Origin: Pedobacter foliorum
Lineage (GTDB): Bacteria > Bacteroidota > Bacteroidia > Sphingobacteriales > Sphingobacteriaceae
Length of the DNA stretch: 64,000 nucleotides
Reading direction: 5' to 3'
NCBI RefSeq assembly: GCF_013266735.1
Contig: NZ_JABSNU010000018.1
Span: 1 to 64,000 of the forward strand
The translations under genes and the position numbers were made by a program. Below, one piece after another: positions 6,545 through 56,434 of the stretch. The notes beneath the pieces are model-generated. The model was not told the origin of the DNA, ran no database searches, and was given only the letters and a program-made list of their open reading frames with translations. Position 1 is the first letter of the stretch, and each line of letters opens with the position of its first letter.

Positions 6545-6694
6545 AGAGGGTATCCAAAAAGATTTATTTACTATTTGATTATGCTCATCGCCGTTCTGAA
6601 TTCATTTCAGAATCTCGTTTAAGCAATATTAAATAGTAATTGTGTGATTCTGAAATGAATTCAGAATGACAATCTTATCTTTTGGATACTCTCT
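6545..6694. repeat. Composite REP-like hairpin between convergent genes
   Basis: Two nested inverted repeats. The outer arms are 6545-6559 and 6680-6694 (AGAGGGTATCCAAAA against its complement, one mismatch). The inner arms are 6593-6614 and 6646-6667, 21 of 22 matching, and each inner arm is itself a palindrome with halves TTCTGAA/TTTCAGAA. The inner core resembles the TCCTGAA...TTCAGGA repeats elsewhere in this window. It sits between the convergent bacilliredoxin and GH30 genes and may act as a bidirectional terminator. Confidence 0.75.
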
Positions 6695-22606: not shown

Positions 22607-23579
22607 CTAAATATTCCGCAATCTGTACTGCGTTTGTTGCAGCACCTTTACGTAAATTATCAGCTACGATCCACATGTTTAATGTATTTGGTAACGACTC
22701 ATCACGTCTGATTCTTCCTACAAATACTTCATCTTTCTCATGAGCATCTTTAGGCATAGGATATTTAAGGTTTGCCGGATCATCAACAACAATTATTCCT
22801 TCTGTTTTGGTTAGTAAATCTCTTACATCAGCAAGATCGAAGTCGTTTTCAAACTCGATGTTAACTGATTCTGAGTGACCACCCATAACAGGAATACGTA
22901 CTGTAGTAGCAGTAACTTTAATGCTGTCATCGCCCATGATCTTGCGTGTTTCAAGAATCATTTTCATTTCCTCTTTAGTGTATCCGTTTTCAGTGAACAC
23001 ATCAATTTGAGGGATAACATTTAAATCGATAGGGTATGCATAAGCCATAGGGCCATCAGTAATACCATTACGCTCATTCATCATCTGCTCAACAGCTTTT
23101 ACTCCCGTACCTGTAACAGACTGGTAAGTAGAAACTACAACACGTTTGATTCTATATTTATCATGAAGTGGTTTTAAAGCCACTACCATTTGTATGGTTG
23201 AACAGTTCGGGTTTGCAATGATCTTATCATCAATAGATAATTCACTTGCATTAACTTCAGGAACGATCAATTTTTTTGAAGGATCCATACGCCAGGCTGA
23301 TGAATTGTCGATCACCGTTGTGCCTGCCTCTGCAAAAAGAGGTGCATATGTTGTTGAAGTACCGCCACCTGCAGAAAACAATGCGATATCTGGTCTCATT
23401 GCAATTGCAGTCTCCATATTTACAACAGCATACTTCTTACCCTTGAACGAGATTTCCTTACCAACACTCTTTTCAGATGCTACAGGGATCAATTCAGTTA
23501 ATGGGAAGTTACGCTCTTCTAATACTTTTAACATTACGGTGCCTACCAAACCGGTGGCTCCAACTACTGCAATTTTCAT
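22587..23579 (-). CDS. asd: Aspartate-semialdehyde dehydrogenase
   Basis: Reduces aspartyl phosphate to aspartate semialdehyde with NADPH, the branch point to lysine/diaminopimelate, threonine and methionine. The 330 residues match the family. The nucleotide-binding GATGLVG is at 7-13, and the catalytic cysteine is C126 in NPNCSTIQM. The start is ATG 23579. The gene end is duplicated in tandem just behind its stop codon. It is apparently transcribed alone: a terminator lies upstream at 23705-23742 and a REP-like element downstream. Confidence 0.97.
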   Translation of the reverse strand: MKIAVVGATGLVGTVMLKVLEERNFPLTELIPVASEKSVGKEISFKGKKYAVVNMETAIAMRPDIALFSAGGGTSTTYAPLFAEAGTTVIDNSSAWRMDPSKKLIVPEVNASELSIDDKIIANPNCSTIQMVVALKPLHDKYRIKRVVVSTYQSVTGTGVKAVEQMMNERNGITDGPMAYAYPIDLNVIPQIDVFTENGYTKEEMKMILETRKIMGDDSIKVTATTVRIPVMGGHSESVNIEFENDFDLADVRDLLTKTEGIIVVDDPANLKYPMPKDAHEKDEVFVGRIRRDESLPNTLNMWIVADNLRKGAATNAVQIAEYLVKSELI

Positions 23580-23704
23580 TTTTTTCTAATTGTTTTTTAC
23601 TTGTTTTTAATTAATTATAAAGGTTTTATGTTTAATAAGTTCCCAAAGATGTGAAATATTTCAGCATTAAGTAAATGTTTCTGCAAAGCAGGGTACTTAT
23701 AAAC

Positions 23705-35363: not shown

Positions 35364-35437
35364 ATATAAATTTAGTGCGCTTATTGATACCGTGTGTATA
35401 TCTGGTGTCCCGCTTCCGTTATTCTCACCCCTTGTTT

Positions 35438-35522
35438 CCGTCATCCTGAATTTATTTCAGGATCTCGCAAGAGAAAAGCGGATTTGTAGGTGCGGGGTCC
35501 TGAAATAAATTCAGGATGACGG
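35438..35522. repeat. REP-like palindromic element, copy 3 (perfect 25-bp arms)
   Basis: Arms 35438-35462 and 35498-35522 are exact 25-bp reverse complements separated by 35 bp, and each arm contains the smaller palindrome TCCTGAA/TTCAGGA. Behind it, to about 35570, three decaying direct copies of an AGGATGACGGATTTGA-like unit follow. It lies in the 278-bp gap between tdh and the yebC-family gene. Confidence 0.85.
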
Positions 35523-35641
35523 ATTTGATTTAGGATGGTGAGTTTGCTTCAAGATGACGGATTTGACTAGAACCTTAACCAGTGGTTTTGAACTAGGATA
35601 CGGTAAATAAAGAGCCTAAGAAATAAATAACAACAAAAAAA

Positions 35642-36391: not shown

Positions 36392-37174
36392 TTATTTCTG
36401 GTTAGATAATAACCATGGCAACAGTTCAGGCTCTGCAAAGGCAGAGTCCCAACTGTTGTGATTCGCTTCAGGATACAATGTTATTTTTGGAGTTTGTCCC
36501 AATACTTTTAATTGATCCGCAATTGAAGTAGATAGTACTACAGGTACTACATCATCTTTTTCTCCATGAAAAATCCATAGGGGAACTTTTTTATACTTCT
36601 GAACATTGGCTATGTTGTCTCCTCCGCAAATAGAAAAAGCGGCGGCAAATGTTTTGCGTTTACGTCTTAACAATTCGTAAGTACCCATACCTCCCATAGA
36701 TAGGCCACCTATGTAAACCTTTTTGTTGTCAACATAAGGTTTATCCAAAAAGTTATCTATCATGCCTAGCAGTGCATGCATGGCTTTCGTCGGTTTACCT
36801 CCGGTTTCAAAATTAAATTCTCGCTTGGAACCATCATTGCTTTCAAATTTAACGTTTGCCCAAAAGCTATCATTGCTACACTGAGGGAATACGACTATAG
36901 CGGGGAACTTTTTACGAACACTTTCTTTTAAAAACAACTTACCACCATGAGTTAGCTGTTTCTCATTGTCGTTGCCTCTTTCTCCACTTCCATGTAAAAC
37001 GAACAGGATTGGGTATTTCTTATTTGCATCAAAATTCTCAGGAAACAGAACTCTATAGGAAATGCTATCCTTCCCTTTAATAAAACTCCCCGATTCATAC
37101 TTCTTGAAATCTTGCGCTTTACTATTCAAACCAAATAGCAAAACCATAAGCGTGGTTAATTTAATCCTGTTCAT
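36392..37174 (-). CDS. Secreted alpha/beta-hydrolase (esterase/prolyl-oligopeptidase-like)
   Basis: A 260-residue exported protein (signal 1-20, LNSKAQ). The hydrolase fold shows the oxyanion segment LFVLHGSGERGND, the nucleophile elbow GGLSMGGMGTYE with Ser in GLSMG, an Asp in HGEKDDVVPV and a His in EANHNSWDSAF. It resembles the PHB-depolymerase/feruloyl-esterase-like carboxylesterases often placed in polysaccharide loci. It lies downstream of the PUL, after the GH3 gene, from which it is separated by a large palindrome, so it may remove ester groups from the same substrate but may be transcribed separately. Confidence 0.87.
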   Translation of the reverse strand: MNRIKLTTLMVLLFGLNSKAQDFKKYESGSFIKGKDSISYRVLFPENFDANKKYPILFVLHGSGERGNDNEKQLTHGGKLFLKESVRKKFPAIVVFPQCSNDSFWANVKFESNDGSKREFNFETGGKPTKAMHALLGMIDNFLDKPYVDNKKVYIGGLSMGGMGTYELLRRKRKTFAAAFSICGGDNIANVQKYKKVPLWIFHGEKDDVVPVVLSTSIADQLKVLGQTPKITLYPEANHNSWDSAFAEPELLPWLLSNQK

Positions 37175-37251: not shown

Positions 37252-37317
37252 GGGTATTATAGGAGTTTTGTAGGACTATTTGTCCTTTAATAGTCCTACA
37301 AAACTCCTATAATACCC
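37252..37317. repeat. Perfect 29-bp inverted repeat made of 11-bp CCT-headed units
   Basis: 37252-37280 and 37289-37317 are exact 29-bp complements with an 8-base loop. Within the right half CCT recurs at 37284, 37295 and 37306, an 11-bp period. The same design (inverted array of 11-bp CCTA units) occurs at 54922-54997. No U-tract follows on either strand, so it is not a classical terminator. It lies between the GH3 and esterase genes. Confidence 0.9.
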
Positions 37318-37340: not shown

Positions 37341-39638
37341 TTATCTTAATCTAAACTGACTCGTTTTTACATCTCTTGAATTTGTGCCGATAAACACTTT
37401 AAAATCTCCAGGTTCTGCTACAAATTTCAAATCAGAGTTAAAGAATTTCAAGTCATCTACAGTAATTTTGAAAGTAACTGTTTTGCTCTCCCCAGCTTTT
37501 AAGCTGATCTTTTCAAAATGCTTTAGTTCTTTAACCGGACGGGTAGAACTACCAACAAGATCTCTGATGTAAAACTGAACTACTTCTTTTCCTTCTCTAG
37601 TTCCTGTATTTTTTACCTCAACACTTGCGTTGATGGTTTCGCCAGCTTTAAAGCTGCTCTTATCTAGTTTTATATCACTATAATCAAAGGTGGTATAGCT
37701 CAGTCCATAACCAAAAGGATACAAAGGATCATTGCTCACATCGATGTAATTAGAGCGGAATTTAGAAAACCATTTGCCATCTTCTAACGGACGGCCAGTA
37801 TTTTTATGACTATAGTACAAAGGTATTTGACCAACATTCTGAGGGAAAGTAGCAGTCAGTTTTCCTGAAGGATTGACATCACCAAATAATACATCAGTAA
37901 TGGCTTTTGCCGCTTCTGTACCACCAAACCAAACATTAAGTATTGCCGGAACATTTTGGTTCTCCCAGTTTAAAACTAATGGACGGCCAGTAAATAGAAC
38001 CAATACAACAGGTTTTCCTGTTTTAAGTAAAGCTTGTAGTAAACGTTTTTGAACCTGTGGAATTTCCAAATCGGTACGGCTAGAGCTTTCTCCACTCATT
38101 TCTGAGCTTTCACCAAGAGCAGCAATAACAACATCAGCTTGTTTAGCTATATCAACAGCTTCTTTGATCACTTCTTCTTCCGGACGATTGTCTCTTGGAA
38201 TATCACGACCAAACATAGTAGCTCTTTTTTGATACTCTTCGTCGGCTAATAAGTTAGAACCTAAACTGTGTAATATTTTAACGTCTGAACCCAAATTAGC
38301 TTTCATTCCATCTAAAAGAGACGAAGTATTGGCTAAATCACTATTTACACTCCAGGTACCAGGCATATTAGAACCTGTATTAGCCAAAGGCCCAATTAAA
38401 GCAACTGTACCCGTTTTTTTAAGGGGCAATGTTTGATTGTCGTTTTTTAACAATACGAATGATTGAGTTGCAGCTTCACGAGCAAATTGTAAATTCTCTG
38501 GTTTAAGTATTTCTGTTTTTGCACGCTCCTCGTTGCAGTAACGGTAAGGATCTTCAAATAAACCCAGCTTATATTTAGCTTCTAACACAAGGCGACAAGC
38601 ATTATCAATTTGTTGTGTTTTTACTTTTCCTTCCTGTACCGATTTTTTTAGGGTAGTTAAAAATCCTTCTCCAACCATATCCATATCAACACCTGCGTTT
38701 AATGATAAAGCAGATACAGCTTGCAAATCACCCAAGCCATGATCTATTAGTTCATTTACGGCAGTGTAGTCGGTAACTACGAAACCTTTAAAACCCCATT
38801 GTTTACGCAATAAATCAGTCATTAACCACTTGTTAGCAGTGGCAGGCACACCATTTATATCATTAAACGAAGTCATCACACTTCCGGCACCAGCATCAAT
38901 AGCAGCTTTGTAAGGAGGAAGGTATTCGTTATACATTCTGTCCAAACTCATGTCTGTAGTGTTGTAATCTCTTCCAGCTTCAGCTGCACCATATAAAGCA
39001 AAGTGTTTTACACAAGCCATCATGGTGTTGTATTTAGAAAGATCATCTCCCTGATAACCTTTAATCATAGCCTTGGCAATTTGGCTGCCCAAATAAGTAT
39101 CCTCTCCTGATCCTTCAGAGATTCTTCCCCAACGAGGGTCTCTTGAAATATCAACCATTGGAGAGAAAGTCCAGTTTAAGCCATCAGCAGTGGCTTCAAT
39201 AGCGGCTATACGGGCTGTTTTTTGTATCAACGACATATCCCAGGTACAAGACAATGCCAATGGAATGGGGAAGGTAGTTTTATATCCGTGGATCACATCC
39301 TGCCCAAAAATGATAGGAATTTTAAGCCTGCTCTGATTTACAGCAATCTCTTGTGCCTTACGGATTTTTTGCGGTGTTGTAAAGCTAAACATACCACCTA
39401 CCTGGCCTTTCTTTATCTTACTTTCAACATCTGTACTTACTACCGATCCTGTGGTTGCTTCACCACCGGTTAGTAAATTAAGTTGACCTATCTTTTCATC
39501 TAAAGTCATTTTAGATAATAGATTACTGATAAAAGCATTCATCTTTTGATCAGGAGCGGAAACTTTGGTTTTCTGTTGTGCAAATGTTGTACTGGTACAG
39601 AAAAATATAGATAAGAATAGTAAGTGCGATATTTTCAT
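37341..39638 (-). CDS. Exported GH3 beta-glucosidase
   Basis: A 765-residue periplasmic or secreted enzyme with signal peptide 1-21 (TTFAQ). Domain order: GH3 N-terminal barrel (about 40-370), GH3 alpha/beta sandwich (about 395-625) and a C-terminal fibronectin-III-like domain (about 660-735). KHFALYG is at 211-217 and the catalytic nucleophile is D290 in GFVVTDY. The acid/base loop is in the second domain near GESSEMSGESSSR. It hydrolyses terminal beta-glucosyl residues from oligosaccharides; next to two GH144-type genes, short beta-1,2-glucans such as sophorose are the likely substrates, as for BT_3567 of Bacteroides thetaiotaomicron. The start is ATG 39638, 4 bp after the SGNH esterase gene. 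Confidence 0.94.
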   Translation of the reverse strand: MKISHLLFLSIFFCTSTTFAQQKTKVSAPDQKMNAFISNLLSKMTLDEKIGQLNLLTGGEATTGSVVSTDVESKIKKGQVGGMFSFTTPQKIRKAQEIAVNQSRLKIPIIFGQDVIHGYKTTFPIPLALSCTWDMSLIQKTARIAAIEATADGLNWTFSPMVDISRDPRWGRISEGSGEDTYLGSQIAKAMIKGYQGDDLSKYNTMMACVKHFALYGAAEAGRDYNTTDMSLDRMYNEYLPPYKAAIDAGAGSVMTSFNDINGVPATANKWLMTDLLRKQWGFKGFVVTDYTAVNELIDHGLGDLQAVSALSLNAGVDMDMVGEGFLTTLKKSVQEGKVKTQQIDNACRLVLEAKYKLGLFEDPYRYCNEERAKTEILKPENLQFAREAATQSFVLLKNDNQTLPLKKTGTVALIGPLANTGSNMPGTWSVNSDLANTSSLLDGMKANLGSDVKILHSLGSNLLADEEYQKRATMFGRDIPRDNRPEEEVIKEAVDIAKQADVVIAALGESSEMSGESSSRTDLEIPQVQKRLLQALLKTGKPVVLVLFTGRPLVLNWENQNVPAILNVWFGGTEAAKAITDVLFGDVNPSGKLTATFPQNVGQIPLYYSHKNTGRPLEDGKWFSKFRSNYIDVSNDPLYPFGYGLSYTTFDYSDIKLDKSSFKAGETINASVEVKNTGTREGKEVVQFYIRDLVGSSTRPVKELKHFEKISLKAGESKTVTFKITVDDLKFFNSDLKFVAEPGDFKVFIGTNSRDVKTSQFRLR

Positions 39639-53861: not shown

Positions 53862-54809
53862 CTAAGATAGTTGTTTACTCGGAACGTTTACCTGTTGGGG
53901 AACTTTTACATAATATCCTGTTCCATCATAAGCTCGTTTACGAGGGTTGGTGGTACATTCAGTTGAGCAACAGCCTTGTAAAGCATCTCCGCAATCATCA
54001 CATTGTGTTACGTGCTCATTACATTCTGGATTGGCACAATTGATCATTTTTGGAGTGATTGTACCACAGTTATAGCATTTAGATACTATTGAGGGGTTAA
54101 CCGTGTTTACATCAACCGCAATACGGTTGTCGAAAACGTAGCATTTACCTTCAAAGTCTTCGCCACCTGCTTCTTTACCATATTTTATGATACCGCCATG
54201 TAATTGGTAAACATCATTAAAACCATGGTGTAAAAGCAAAGCTGATGCTTTTTCGCATTTTATGCCGCCAGTGCAATAAGTAAGTACTTTTTTATCCTTG
54301 TATTTAGCAAGCTCATTTATTTTTTCAGGGAAATCTCTGAAATTCTCAATATCTAAGGTTACTGCGTTTTTAAATTTACCCAGATTGTGCTCGTAGTTTG
54401 AACGTACATCAAGGATGATCACATCTTCCTGATCTATCATTTTCTGAAACTCAACAGGCTCCAGGTGTTTACCTGTTTGCTTGTTTGGGTCTATAATGTT
54501 TGGATCTCTTAATCCTGAGTGTACAATTTCAGCTTTGTAGCGGCAATGCATTTTAATAAATGAAGGCTCTTCTACATTGTCAATTTTGAATTCAGTTTTA
54601 GCAAAACGTTCATCAGCTTTTATAGCTGCCATGTAGGCGTCGCATGATTCTTTTGTTCCTGAAACAGTGCCATTTAATCCTTCGTTGGCAACAATAATAC
54701 GACCAACAAGGTTTAAAGATTTGCAGAATGTAAGATGATCAGCAGCAAATTGTTCTGCCTCGGCTATGTGACTATAGCAATAGTAAAGTAATGTCTGGAA
54801 TTTTTTCAT
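53862..54809 (-). CDS. trhO: tRNA uridine-34 hydroxylase, rhodanese family
   Basis: A 315-residue YceA/TrhO protein, which hydroxylates uridine 34 of some tRNAs to 5-hydroxyuridine in an O2-dependent manner. An N-terminal ferredoxin-like domain (about 1-95) is followed by a rhodanese domain (about 125-225) with the catalytic loop YCTGGIKCEKAS; a cysteine-rich tail (CYNCGTITPKMINCANPEC, then CDDCGDALQGCCSTEC) may bind zinc. The start is ATG 54809. Its stop is 6 bp before the PUL regulator start, so the regulator may be expressed from the trhO promoter. Confidence 0.94.
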   Translation of the reverse strand: MKKFQTLLYYCYSHIAEAEQFAADHLTFCKSLNLVGRIIVANEGLNGTVSGTKESCDAYMAAIKADERFAKTEFKIDNVEEPSFIKMHCRYKAEIVHSGLRDPNIIDPNKQTGKHLEPVEFQKMIDQEDVIILDVRSNYEHNLGKFKNAVTLDIENFRDFPEKINELAKYKDKKVLTYCTGGIKCEKASALLLHHGFNDVYQLHGGIIKYGKEAGGEDFEGKCYVFDNRIAVDVNTVNPSIVSKCYNCGTITPKMINCANPECNEHVTQCDDCGDALQGCCSTECTTNPRKRAYDGTGYYVKVPQQVNVPSKQLS

Positions 54810-54921
54810 AATTCATTGATACCGATGCAAACGGCGTTTAATGCGGTGCAAAGGTAGTAAAAAAATAAAAGAATTGATATGTTGCTGCGGCTATATGTTT
54901 AAGCTTTGTTTGGGTGATGTA

Positions 54922-54997
54922 AGGGCGTTTACAGGGTGTTTGGCCCTACCAAGGCCCTAGTAACGCCCTATCAACGCCCTGGCAACGGCCCCATAAC
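54922..54997. repeat. Palindromic array of 11-bp CCCTA units
   Basis: Two 11-bp units in inverted orientation (AGGGCGTTTAC 54922-54932, AGGGTGTTTGG 54933-54943) are followed without gap by four direct units: CCCTACCAAGG, CCCTAGTAACG, CCCTATCAACG, CCCTGGCAACG (54944-54987), and a partial fifth. The period is exactly 11 bp. It lies in the 322-bp gap between trhO and the divergent C1 peptidase gene; the rest of that gap holds only a promoter candidate. Confidence 0.85.
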
Positions 54998-55077: not shown

Positions 55078-55085
55078 TAAGTTTG
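55078..55085 (+). promoter_or_regulatory. Candidate -7 box of the C1 peptidase gene
   Basis: TAAGTTTG matches TAnnTTTG exactly and lies 46 bp before the ATG at 55132. No TTG is present at the normal -33 spacing, so this is a half-supported promoter. Confidence 0.45.
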
Positions 55086-55131: not shown

Positions 55132-56325
55132 ATGACTAACACTTCTATGAGATCATTGTGGTTGACAGCAAGTCTTCTACTTGGATCAACTGTTGGATTT
55201 GCACAAGACAACCTTGTAAATTCATTAAAAAACAACCAAAGCGAAAACAGCGCAACCAGTTTTAAATTTACACCAGTTATAAATACTGAAGCAACTTCTG
55301 TTAAAAATCAAAAATCTTCTGGTACTTGCTGGAGTTACAGCACCAACTCTTTCTTAGAGTCGGAAATGATTAGAATGGGCAAAAAACCGGTAGATATTGC
55401 CGATTTATTTACTGCTCGTAATGTTTATGTTGAAAAAGGAATCAATTATGTGCGTATGCATGGTGCCTTAACATTAGGCGATGGCGGTGCATGTCATGAT
55501 GTAATTAATATGTTGGCTAAATATGGTGCTTTACCTCAGGAAGCTTATAGTGGTAATGATTACGGATCTCCTGGATCATCAGATAGAATGAACACTTTAA
55601 CAAAAGCTATTTTAGAGAAAGCTGTAAATGGAGCTGATGGTAAGTTTGATCCTAAATGGAAAGCTAAATATATTGCAACTATCGATTCTTGTATGGGTGC
55701 AGTTCCTGAAAAATTCACTTACGAAGGAAAAGAATACACTCCAAAAAGCTTTGCTAAAGAGGTTGTAGGTATTAATCCTGAAGATTATGTTGAACTTTCA
55801 TCTTTCAATACTTCTCCATATTACAAAAAAGCTGTTTTGATGGTTCCTGATAACTGGTCGTACGATCAGGTATATAATGTGCAAATGGACGATATCACTA
55901 AAATCATTGATAATGCTTTAAAAGGTGGTTATAGCGTTGCATGGGCAACTGATGTTAGTGAGAAAGGCTTTAGCTGGAAAAACGGTGTTGCTTACGTTCC
56001 TGAAAAGGACTTTGACAGCATGACTGACGAAGAGAAAAAAGCAATGTTTAATGGTCCAAAAGCTGAAAAGGAAATCACTGTAGATTTACGTCAGGCGGCA
56101 TTTGATGATTATCAAACTACTGATGATCATGGTATGCAGATTACCGGATTAGCTAAAGATCAGAATGGTAAAGAATATTATATCGTTAAGAACTCTTGGG
56201 GTGCTACAAACGATTATAACGGTTATTTATATGTAACTAAAAACTTTGTGAAATATAAAACCACTGCGTTTTTATTACATAAAAAAGGTATCCCTTCTGA
56301 TATCCGTAAAAAACTGGATATCTAA
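55132..56325 (+). CDS. Exported C1-family cysteine peptidase (bleomycin hydrolase-like)
   Basis: A 397-residue papain-superfamily peptidase with a signal peptide (about 1-25, VGFAQ). The catalytic cysteine is C66 in SSGTCWSYS; the histidine is in TTDDHGMQITG and the asparagine in YYIVKNSWGA. The insert pattern (FTARNVYVEKGINYVRMHG, GGACHDVINMLAKYG, FTYEGKEYTPKSFAKEVVG) is that of the aminopeptidase C/bleomycin hydrolase group, which is normally cytoplasmic; export is typical for Bacteroidota members. It trims peptides from the N-terminus. It is monocistronic, divergent from trhO. Confidence 0.93.
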   Translation: MTNTSMRSLWLTASLLLGSTVGFAQDNLVNSLKNNQSENSATSFKFTPVINTEATSVKNQKSSGTCWSYSTNSFLESEMIRMGKKPVDIADLFTARNVYVEKGINYVRMHGALTLGDGGACHDVINMLAKYGALPQEAYSGNDYGSPGSSDRMNTLTKAILEKAVNGADGKFDPKWKAKYIATIDSCMGAVPEKFTYEGKEYTPKSFAKEVVGINPEDYVELSSFNTSPYYKKAVLMVPDNWSYDQVYNVQMDDITKIIDNALKGGYSVAWATDVSEKGFSWKNGVAYVPEKDFDSMTDEEKKAMFNGPKAEKEITVDLRQAAFDDYQTTDDHGMQITGLAKDQNGKEYYIVKNSWGATNDYNGYLYVTKNFVKYKTTAFLLHKKGIPSDIRKKLDI

Positions 56326-56351: not shown

Positions 56352-56434
56352 CGTCATCCTGAATTTATTTCAGGACCCCTCAAGAGAAAGACGGAACAGC
56401 GCTTGCGAGGTCCTGAAATAAATTCAGGATGACG
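56352..56434. repeat. REP-like palindromic element, copy 4 (perfect 26-bp arms)
   Basis: Arms 56352-56377 and 56409-56434 are exact 26-bp complements 31 bp apart; each arm holds the small palindrome TCCTGAA/TTCAGGA. The inner flanks (CCTCAAG, CTTGCGAGG) extend the pairing imperfectly. It lies just after the C1 peptidase gene in a 332-bp convergent gap that also holds a terminator and a CCTA repeat array. Confidence 0.85.

Follow-up and report, generated by a model that had tools for sequence, protein, structure and literature searches.

Two intergenic arrays of 11-bp units in Pedobacter foliorum

The window, meaning the whole stretch of 64,000 nucleotides of Pedobacter foliorum DNA that was analyzed, carries two intergenic repeat elements, at 54922 and 37252, whose features and neighboring genes are listed in Table 1. 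The first, hereafter the class A array, lies between a trhO-like gene and a divergent peptidase C1-like gene. The preliminary description had read it as two inverted and then four direct 11-bp units, and this layout was borne out, with a 5-nt center and a degenerate fifth unit now added; the terminal CCCC-ATAAC-GAA of the fifth unit is common to class A copies. Each neighboring gene has a promoter-like motif (TACCTTTG and TAAGTTTG), which we take to be a Bacteroidota -7 element. The array sits between these divergent motifs, i.e., upstream of both. A terminator scan of the region returned zero terminator-like sites and, as had been noted earlier, a U-tract is absent; a sigma-70 scan was negative or uninformative.

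Table 1 Coordinates and strands of the two arrays, the promoter-like motifs and the neighboring genes in the window.
Feature	Position	Strand	Details
Class A left arm	54916..54937	-	two inverted 11-bp units, reverse complements of GCCCTTACATC (54916-54926) and ACCCTGTAAAC (54927-54937)
Class A center	54938..54942	none	5 nt separating the inverted arms
Class A right arm	54943..54986	+	direct units GCCCTACCAAG, GCCCTAGTAAC, GCCCTATCAAC and GCCCTGGCAAC, starting at 54943, 54954, 54965 and 54976 in this order
Degenerate fifth unit of the class A array	54987..54997	+	GGCCCCATAAC
trhO-like gene	53862..54809	-	UPF0176/rhodanese; neighbor of the class A array
Presumed Bacteroidota-type -7 motif for the trhO-like gene	54849..54856	-	TACCTTTG
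Presumed Bacteroidota-type -7 motif for the C1-peptidase gene	55078..55085	+	TAAGTTTG
Peptidase C1-like gene	55132..56325	+	neighbor of the class A array; divergent from the trhO-like gene
Class B left arm	37252..37280	none	arm of the perfect 29-bp inverted repeat
Class B right arm	37289..37317	none	inverted-repeat partner of 37252..37280
Esterase/alpha-beta hydrolase gene	36392..37174	-	neighbor of the class B array
GH3 beta-glucosidase-type gene	37341..39638	-	neighbor of the class B array

The second element, the class B array, has arms of 29 nt each that are 100% complementary and 8 nt apart, so the perfect inverted repeat reported before stands. Its units GTCCTTTAATA, GTCCTACAAAA and CTCCTATAATA start at 37282, 37293 and 37304, and the 11-bp step attributed to it holds except at the last CCCTA, where a 10-bp step is the sole exception. 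The RNA-fold z of the element was -13.3. Against Rfam, the perfect hairpin gave sub-threshold matches only, mostly to microRNA-precursor models, and for the arrays no family reached the gathering threshold.

The window also contains long palindromes of type CGTCATCCTGAATTTATTTCAGGA (35437-35523, 56352-56434 and 6587-6673) that resemble CGTC-tagged REPs of Bacteroidetes (PMC3733652), and similar copies are found near two 11-bp arrays elsewhere in the genome.

Core and spacer positions of the units

The class A unit reads G-C-C-C-T-A-n-n-A-A-n. Across 76 right-arm units, information content was 1.2-1.9 bits at the core positions, against 0.2-0.8 bits at the three positions of the spacer. Part of the core conservation in these values reflects the selection of loci, because the search pattern used to find some of them contained the core. 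This selection bears less on the left-arm units and on units 3-4 of the right arm, which showed a like core/spacer split, in weaker form. Since the left arms keep the core, and so do right-arm units 3-4, which lie mostly past the reach of the two-unit left arm, the pattern points to a constraint that probably acts on each unit, beyond pairing alone.

The cores differ among species (GCCCTA, GTCCTA, GTCTGA, CCCTGT and GGTGTGAA), and the class A plan is shared by classes with GTCCTA (B), GTCTGA (D), CCCTGTTA (I) and GGTGTGAA (T). Of 144 genomes in the genus, 51 contained class I patterns, with a low reversed control, and 16 contained class T patterns, with a reversed control of zero; the corresponding control for class D was invalid because its pattern is near-symmetric when reversed. 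The elements at 54922 and 37252 are confirmed as dispersed repeats of a single kind, belonging to two of its related classes, and they have the same design, as had been claimed: each is an inverted array whose 11-bp units join a conserved core to a spacer that varies. Small intergenic hairpin arrays of this kind number in the dozens in Pedobacter genomes.

Distribution of the arrays and their period

A BLAST search of the home genome (G000, 6.08 Mb) with the 54922 element found five more class A copies of 81-86% identity, and pattern searches added one, giving seven class A copies. Further class B copies were located on contigs C5, C33 and C39 by BLAST and on C40 and C11 by patterns; classes A and B together make up at least 15 copies in this genome, with other classes besides. 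The period-11 pattern had 13 matches in G000 and its reversed control had 0. For the period-10 pattern, which served as a negative control, the sole match was a TCCTA pentanucleotide satellite near a contig end (L001, G000:C14:401-444).

The period was also profiled without any motif, based on self-similarity at lags 7-19 in 36-bp windows with a threshold of 23 of 36. Lag 11 gave nine intergenic arrays in 464 kb of G000 and nine in 280 kb of G092, the other lags gave 0-2 intergenic arrays each, and open reading frames made up about 91% of the scanned DNA. At the same threshold, a sample of 20 species of the genus (20 kb each) contained five lag-11 arrays, all intergenic, along with five at lag 7 and three at lag 14. 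Other families of the class, scanned over 354 kb, had no lag-11 array at a threshold of 23, so the period marks this genus. In the array-blind sequence of the genus overall, period 11 stood out and nearly all of its arrays were intergenic. An AT-rich intergenic run in the window (23571-23637) has lag-11 self-similarity and no notable hairpin, and may be a decayed array or chance.

In general, the lag-11 arrays varied in hairpin potential, which was strong in many and little in some. About 15 of 33 copies lay between divergent genes, which is not clearly above expectation, and no preference of the arrays for gene ends was detected. Units similar to those of Pedobacter were also found in rumen Bacteroidales, some of them strongly palindromic. 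Among these, the strongly palindromic CCTAnCAACGC arrays in rumen Bacteroidales MAGs (L091, L105 and L122) had no visible neighbor encoding DUF6266, the protein family described below. Pattern matches outside Bacteroidota were mostly direct repeats without inverted arms. A phage origin of the repeats was considered and rejected (two viral contigs only, one AT-rich direct array).

The suggestion that the two spots represent an undescribed repeat family agrees with these results. Further copies exist in the home genome, the period is kept in relatives (by the lag scans of the genus and by class patterns in other Pedobacter genomes), Rfam has no family at gathering score, and none of the open-access papers searched prints the units or names DUF6266 or PF19781, an absence that is not proof of novelty.

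Presence, length and class of arrays differ between relatives

The nearest relative found was G126, whose flanking trhO-like protein is 97% identical to that of the home genome across 110 aa. Two arrays differ between G000 and G126 by exactly 11 and 22 bp. The 54922 array is at the same place in G002 and G083 and missing in G126. Three relatives lack array A_C40, and G126 lacks several class B arrays. The empty sites showed no clean target-site duplication, with flanks too diverged to call one.

Three orthologous loci carry GTCCTA units in G000 but GTCTGA units in G126, with the register unchanged and nearly all units having changed class between the sister species (compared lengths of 125/124, 80/80 and 82/92 bp). 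This in-place rewriting of nearly every unit is the strangest observation of the analysis. It is compatible with recognizer-driven replacement or with conversion from other arrays; a new array inserted at exactly that site is a less likely cause. Elsewhere in G126, the orthologue of the class B array at G000:C40:92110 (L209) is reduced to a mini-palindrome, TATAGGCCTA, which is either a deletion product or an array seed.

DUF6266 genes lie beside arrays of most classes

Annotation of neighboring genes placed four unrelated arrays of different classes each just upstream of a gene for DUF6266 (PF19781), a Pfam family of unknown function. This linkage was then set as a prediction, and 40 further class T and class I loci were fetched from five species. 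They included six DUF6266 genes, each directly adjoining its array, in G060 (two subclasses), G065, G069 (class T and class I) and G076. DUF6266 thus accounted for 6 of 77 flanking genes versus 1 of 1013 open reading frames in array-blind sequence of the genus (p=7e-7), and the lone array-blind gene, in G092, has an array about 250 bp upstream. Classes with DUF6266 next to an array are B, C, D, T, I and the GACC/GTCC class (G050 and G069), the last being nearest to class A. No DUF6266 gene was found beside the seven class A copies of G000, nor next to any of the 11 arrays of class T that were inspected in G066.

The 13 DUF6266 genes compared, which include two orthologue pairs, all matched PF19781. 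Their arrays were always 5', about 80-250 bp from the start codon, and none was downstream, a 13 of 13 that arises partly by construction, since most loci were fetched for their arrays, and for which the background comparison is the real test. DUF6266 identity correlated with unit similarity (Mantel r 0.56, p 0.0008), a result that is supporting and not decisive because the unit strings were selected visually and class I has a large weight in it. The proteins of classes B and D are sisters with 54% identity, and arrays of these two classes replace one another at orthologous loci. By sequence, DUF6266 matched neither a solved structure nor any other family, and the searches made of phage, plasmid and viral-contig collections returned no DUF6266. 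One DUF6266 gene in the home genome has directly upstream a larger nested array (L045:3240-3490, G000:C38), with outer units TCACTAGGAAA and an inner CCCCTAGAAAC array.

Comparison with known repeat systems

REP and REPIN repeats are small dispersed intergenic palindromes associated with RAYT (TnpA-REP) genes (PMC2817692, PMC3116915, PMC8266576). The arrays resemble them as dispersed intergenic palindromes with several families per genus and in the link of one gene to a family of non-coding copies: a gene linked to one member of each family, here DUF6266, was found in most classes, though not beside the G000 arrays of class A or the G066 arrays of class T. However, the linked protein of REP/RAYT systems is a Y1 HUH transposase, and PF01797 (the Y1 transposase of IS200/RAYT type) was detected in 0 of 8 genomes in a search that recovered its positive controls. 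REPs are stem-loops of 20-40 bp with a GTAG or CGTC end (PMC3733652), whereas the elements described here are multi-unit 11-bp arrays. A further difference is that the array next to a linked gene lies solely on its 5' side. We rejected membership in the REP/RAYT group because the defining transposase is absent from all eight genomes and the repeat plan is different.

The plasmid partition/iteron arrays parC of R1 (bound by ParR) and stbDR of R388 (bound by StbA) have 11-bp steps. Like them, the Pedobacter arrays consist of direct sites one helical turn apart, each a core with a short spacer, and lie beside the gene of a binding protein, if DUF6266 is one. Unlike them, the arrays are inverted, chromosomally dispersed, present in many copies and divided into several classes; instead of a single replicon site near partition genes, copies are spread over contigs and chromosomes, and the library searches revealed no resemblance of DUF6266 to those proteins. 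MITEs are short, non-coding, palindromic and multicopy, with empty sites in relatives, and the arrays are similar in all these respects. They differ in that their units vary in number by 11 bp. No fixed terminal repeat was recognized, nor any target-site duplication at the empty sites, whose flanks are too diverged to call one.

Discussion

A step of one helical turn with a conserved core and a free spacer looks like a binding-site array on one face of the DNA, and a gene linked to one array per class on a fixed side looks like a self-regulated recognizer. On these grounds, we infer that DUF6266 proteins bind the arrays of their own class. That both spots belong to a system of DUF6266 genes and dispersed 11-bp sites, with each paralogue recognizing its own class, is in our view an evenly balanced proposition. 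Points that weigh against it are that DUF6266 resembles no solved structure or other family, that the class A copies of G000 and the G066 arrays of class T have no DUF6266 neighbor, that all but one of the DUF6266 genes come from loci chosen for their arrays, that the Mantel test used visually selected unit strings, and that some lag-11 arrays have little hairpin potential. One unit, with a core of ~8 bp and a spacer of ~3 bp, would be one putative binding site, and the 11-bp step would place the sites of an array roughly on one helix face. Each DUF6266 paralogue would recognize the core of its own class, binding the array beside its own gene, where it probably autoregulates, and also the dispersed arrays elsewhere. 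The palindromic layout suggests that copying passes through a hairpin: the inverted arms could form one in single-stranded DNA, a likely copying route. Unit number would change by slippage, and the class of an array could be rewritten. What was observed is the arrays with their period, classes and intergenic location, their presence or absence in different species, the in-register class switch and, in most classes, the DUF6266 linkage on a fixed side; binding to DNA, autoregulation, mobility and the driver of the class switch are inferred from these.

Between the two roles raised in the preliminary description, the protein array site is favored by sequence features, in that the core is kept beyond the short arm, the 54922 array lies between promoter-like motifs and a protein family is linked. 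In the structured-RNA reading, the arrays would be transcribed hairpins and 11 bp a full turn of the A-form RNA helix. It is less likely for the copy at 54922, which lies between two divergent promoter-like motifs, upstream of both. Strong RNA folding of the class B array (the z of -13.3) and of several other arrays speaks for it, but gene ends are not preferred, partnerless right-arm units keep the core and Rfam has no match at gathering score, making it improbable overall. Transcription terminators would also be hairpins in intergenic DNA; a region with neither a terminator-like site nor a U-tract, located between divergent genes, makes this reading scarcely credible.

Selfish hairpin repeats moved by another enzyme, whose hairpin-processing geometry would set the 11-bp step and for which DUF6266 would be a passenger or a seeding upstream region, could account for the flanking ends common to copies, for the absence of A_C40 in three relatives and of several class B arrays in G126, and for the strong hairpins of many arrays. 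This is possible but rather unlikely, as the eight genomes tested lack a Y1 transposase, the empty sites, with their diverged flanks, show no clean target-site duplication, and neither the in-register rewriting of old copies nor the match between DUF6266 phylogeny and units is predicted by it. Sister species differ in unit number by exactly 11 and 22 bp, as recognizer-free, neutral slippage with template switching would produce, and the perfect arms suggest arm-to-arm correction. However, a single period across unrelated cores, the core/spacer conservation and the DUF6266 linkage all go unexplained by slippage, and we consider this reading quite improbable.

Returning to the DUF6266 system, a broader and more tentative claim, which we hold at somewhat under an even chance, is that DUF6266 may be an undescribed class of sequence-specific DNA-binding, perhaps DNA-mobilizing, proteins. 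Its paralogues would be paired with their own helix-phased arrays, which would be rewritten in register as specificity changes, so that the protein and its genome-wide sites would co-evolve. If true, the system would provide the first function for an uncharacterized protein family and a second, RAYT-independent coupling of a bacterial gene to dispersed palindromic repeats. The in-register switch between sister species would then be a natural experiment in which genome-wide sites follow a changing recognizer.
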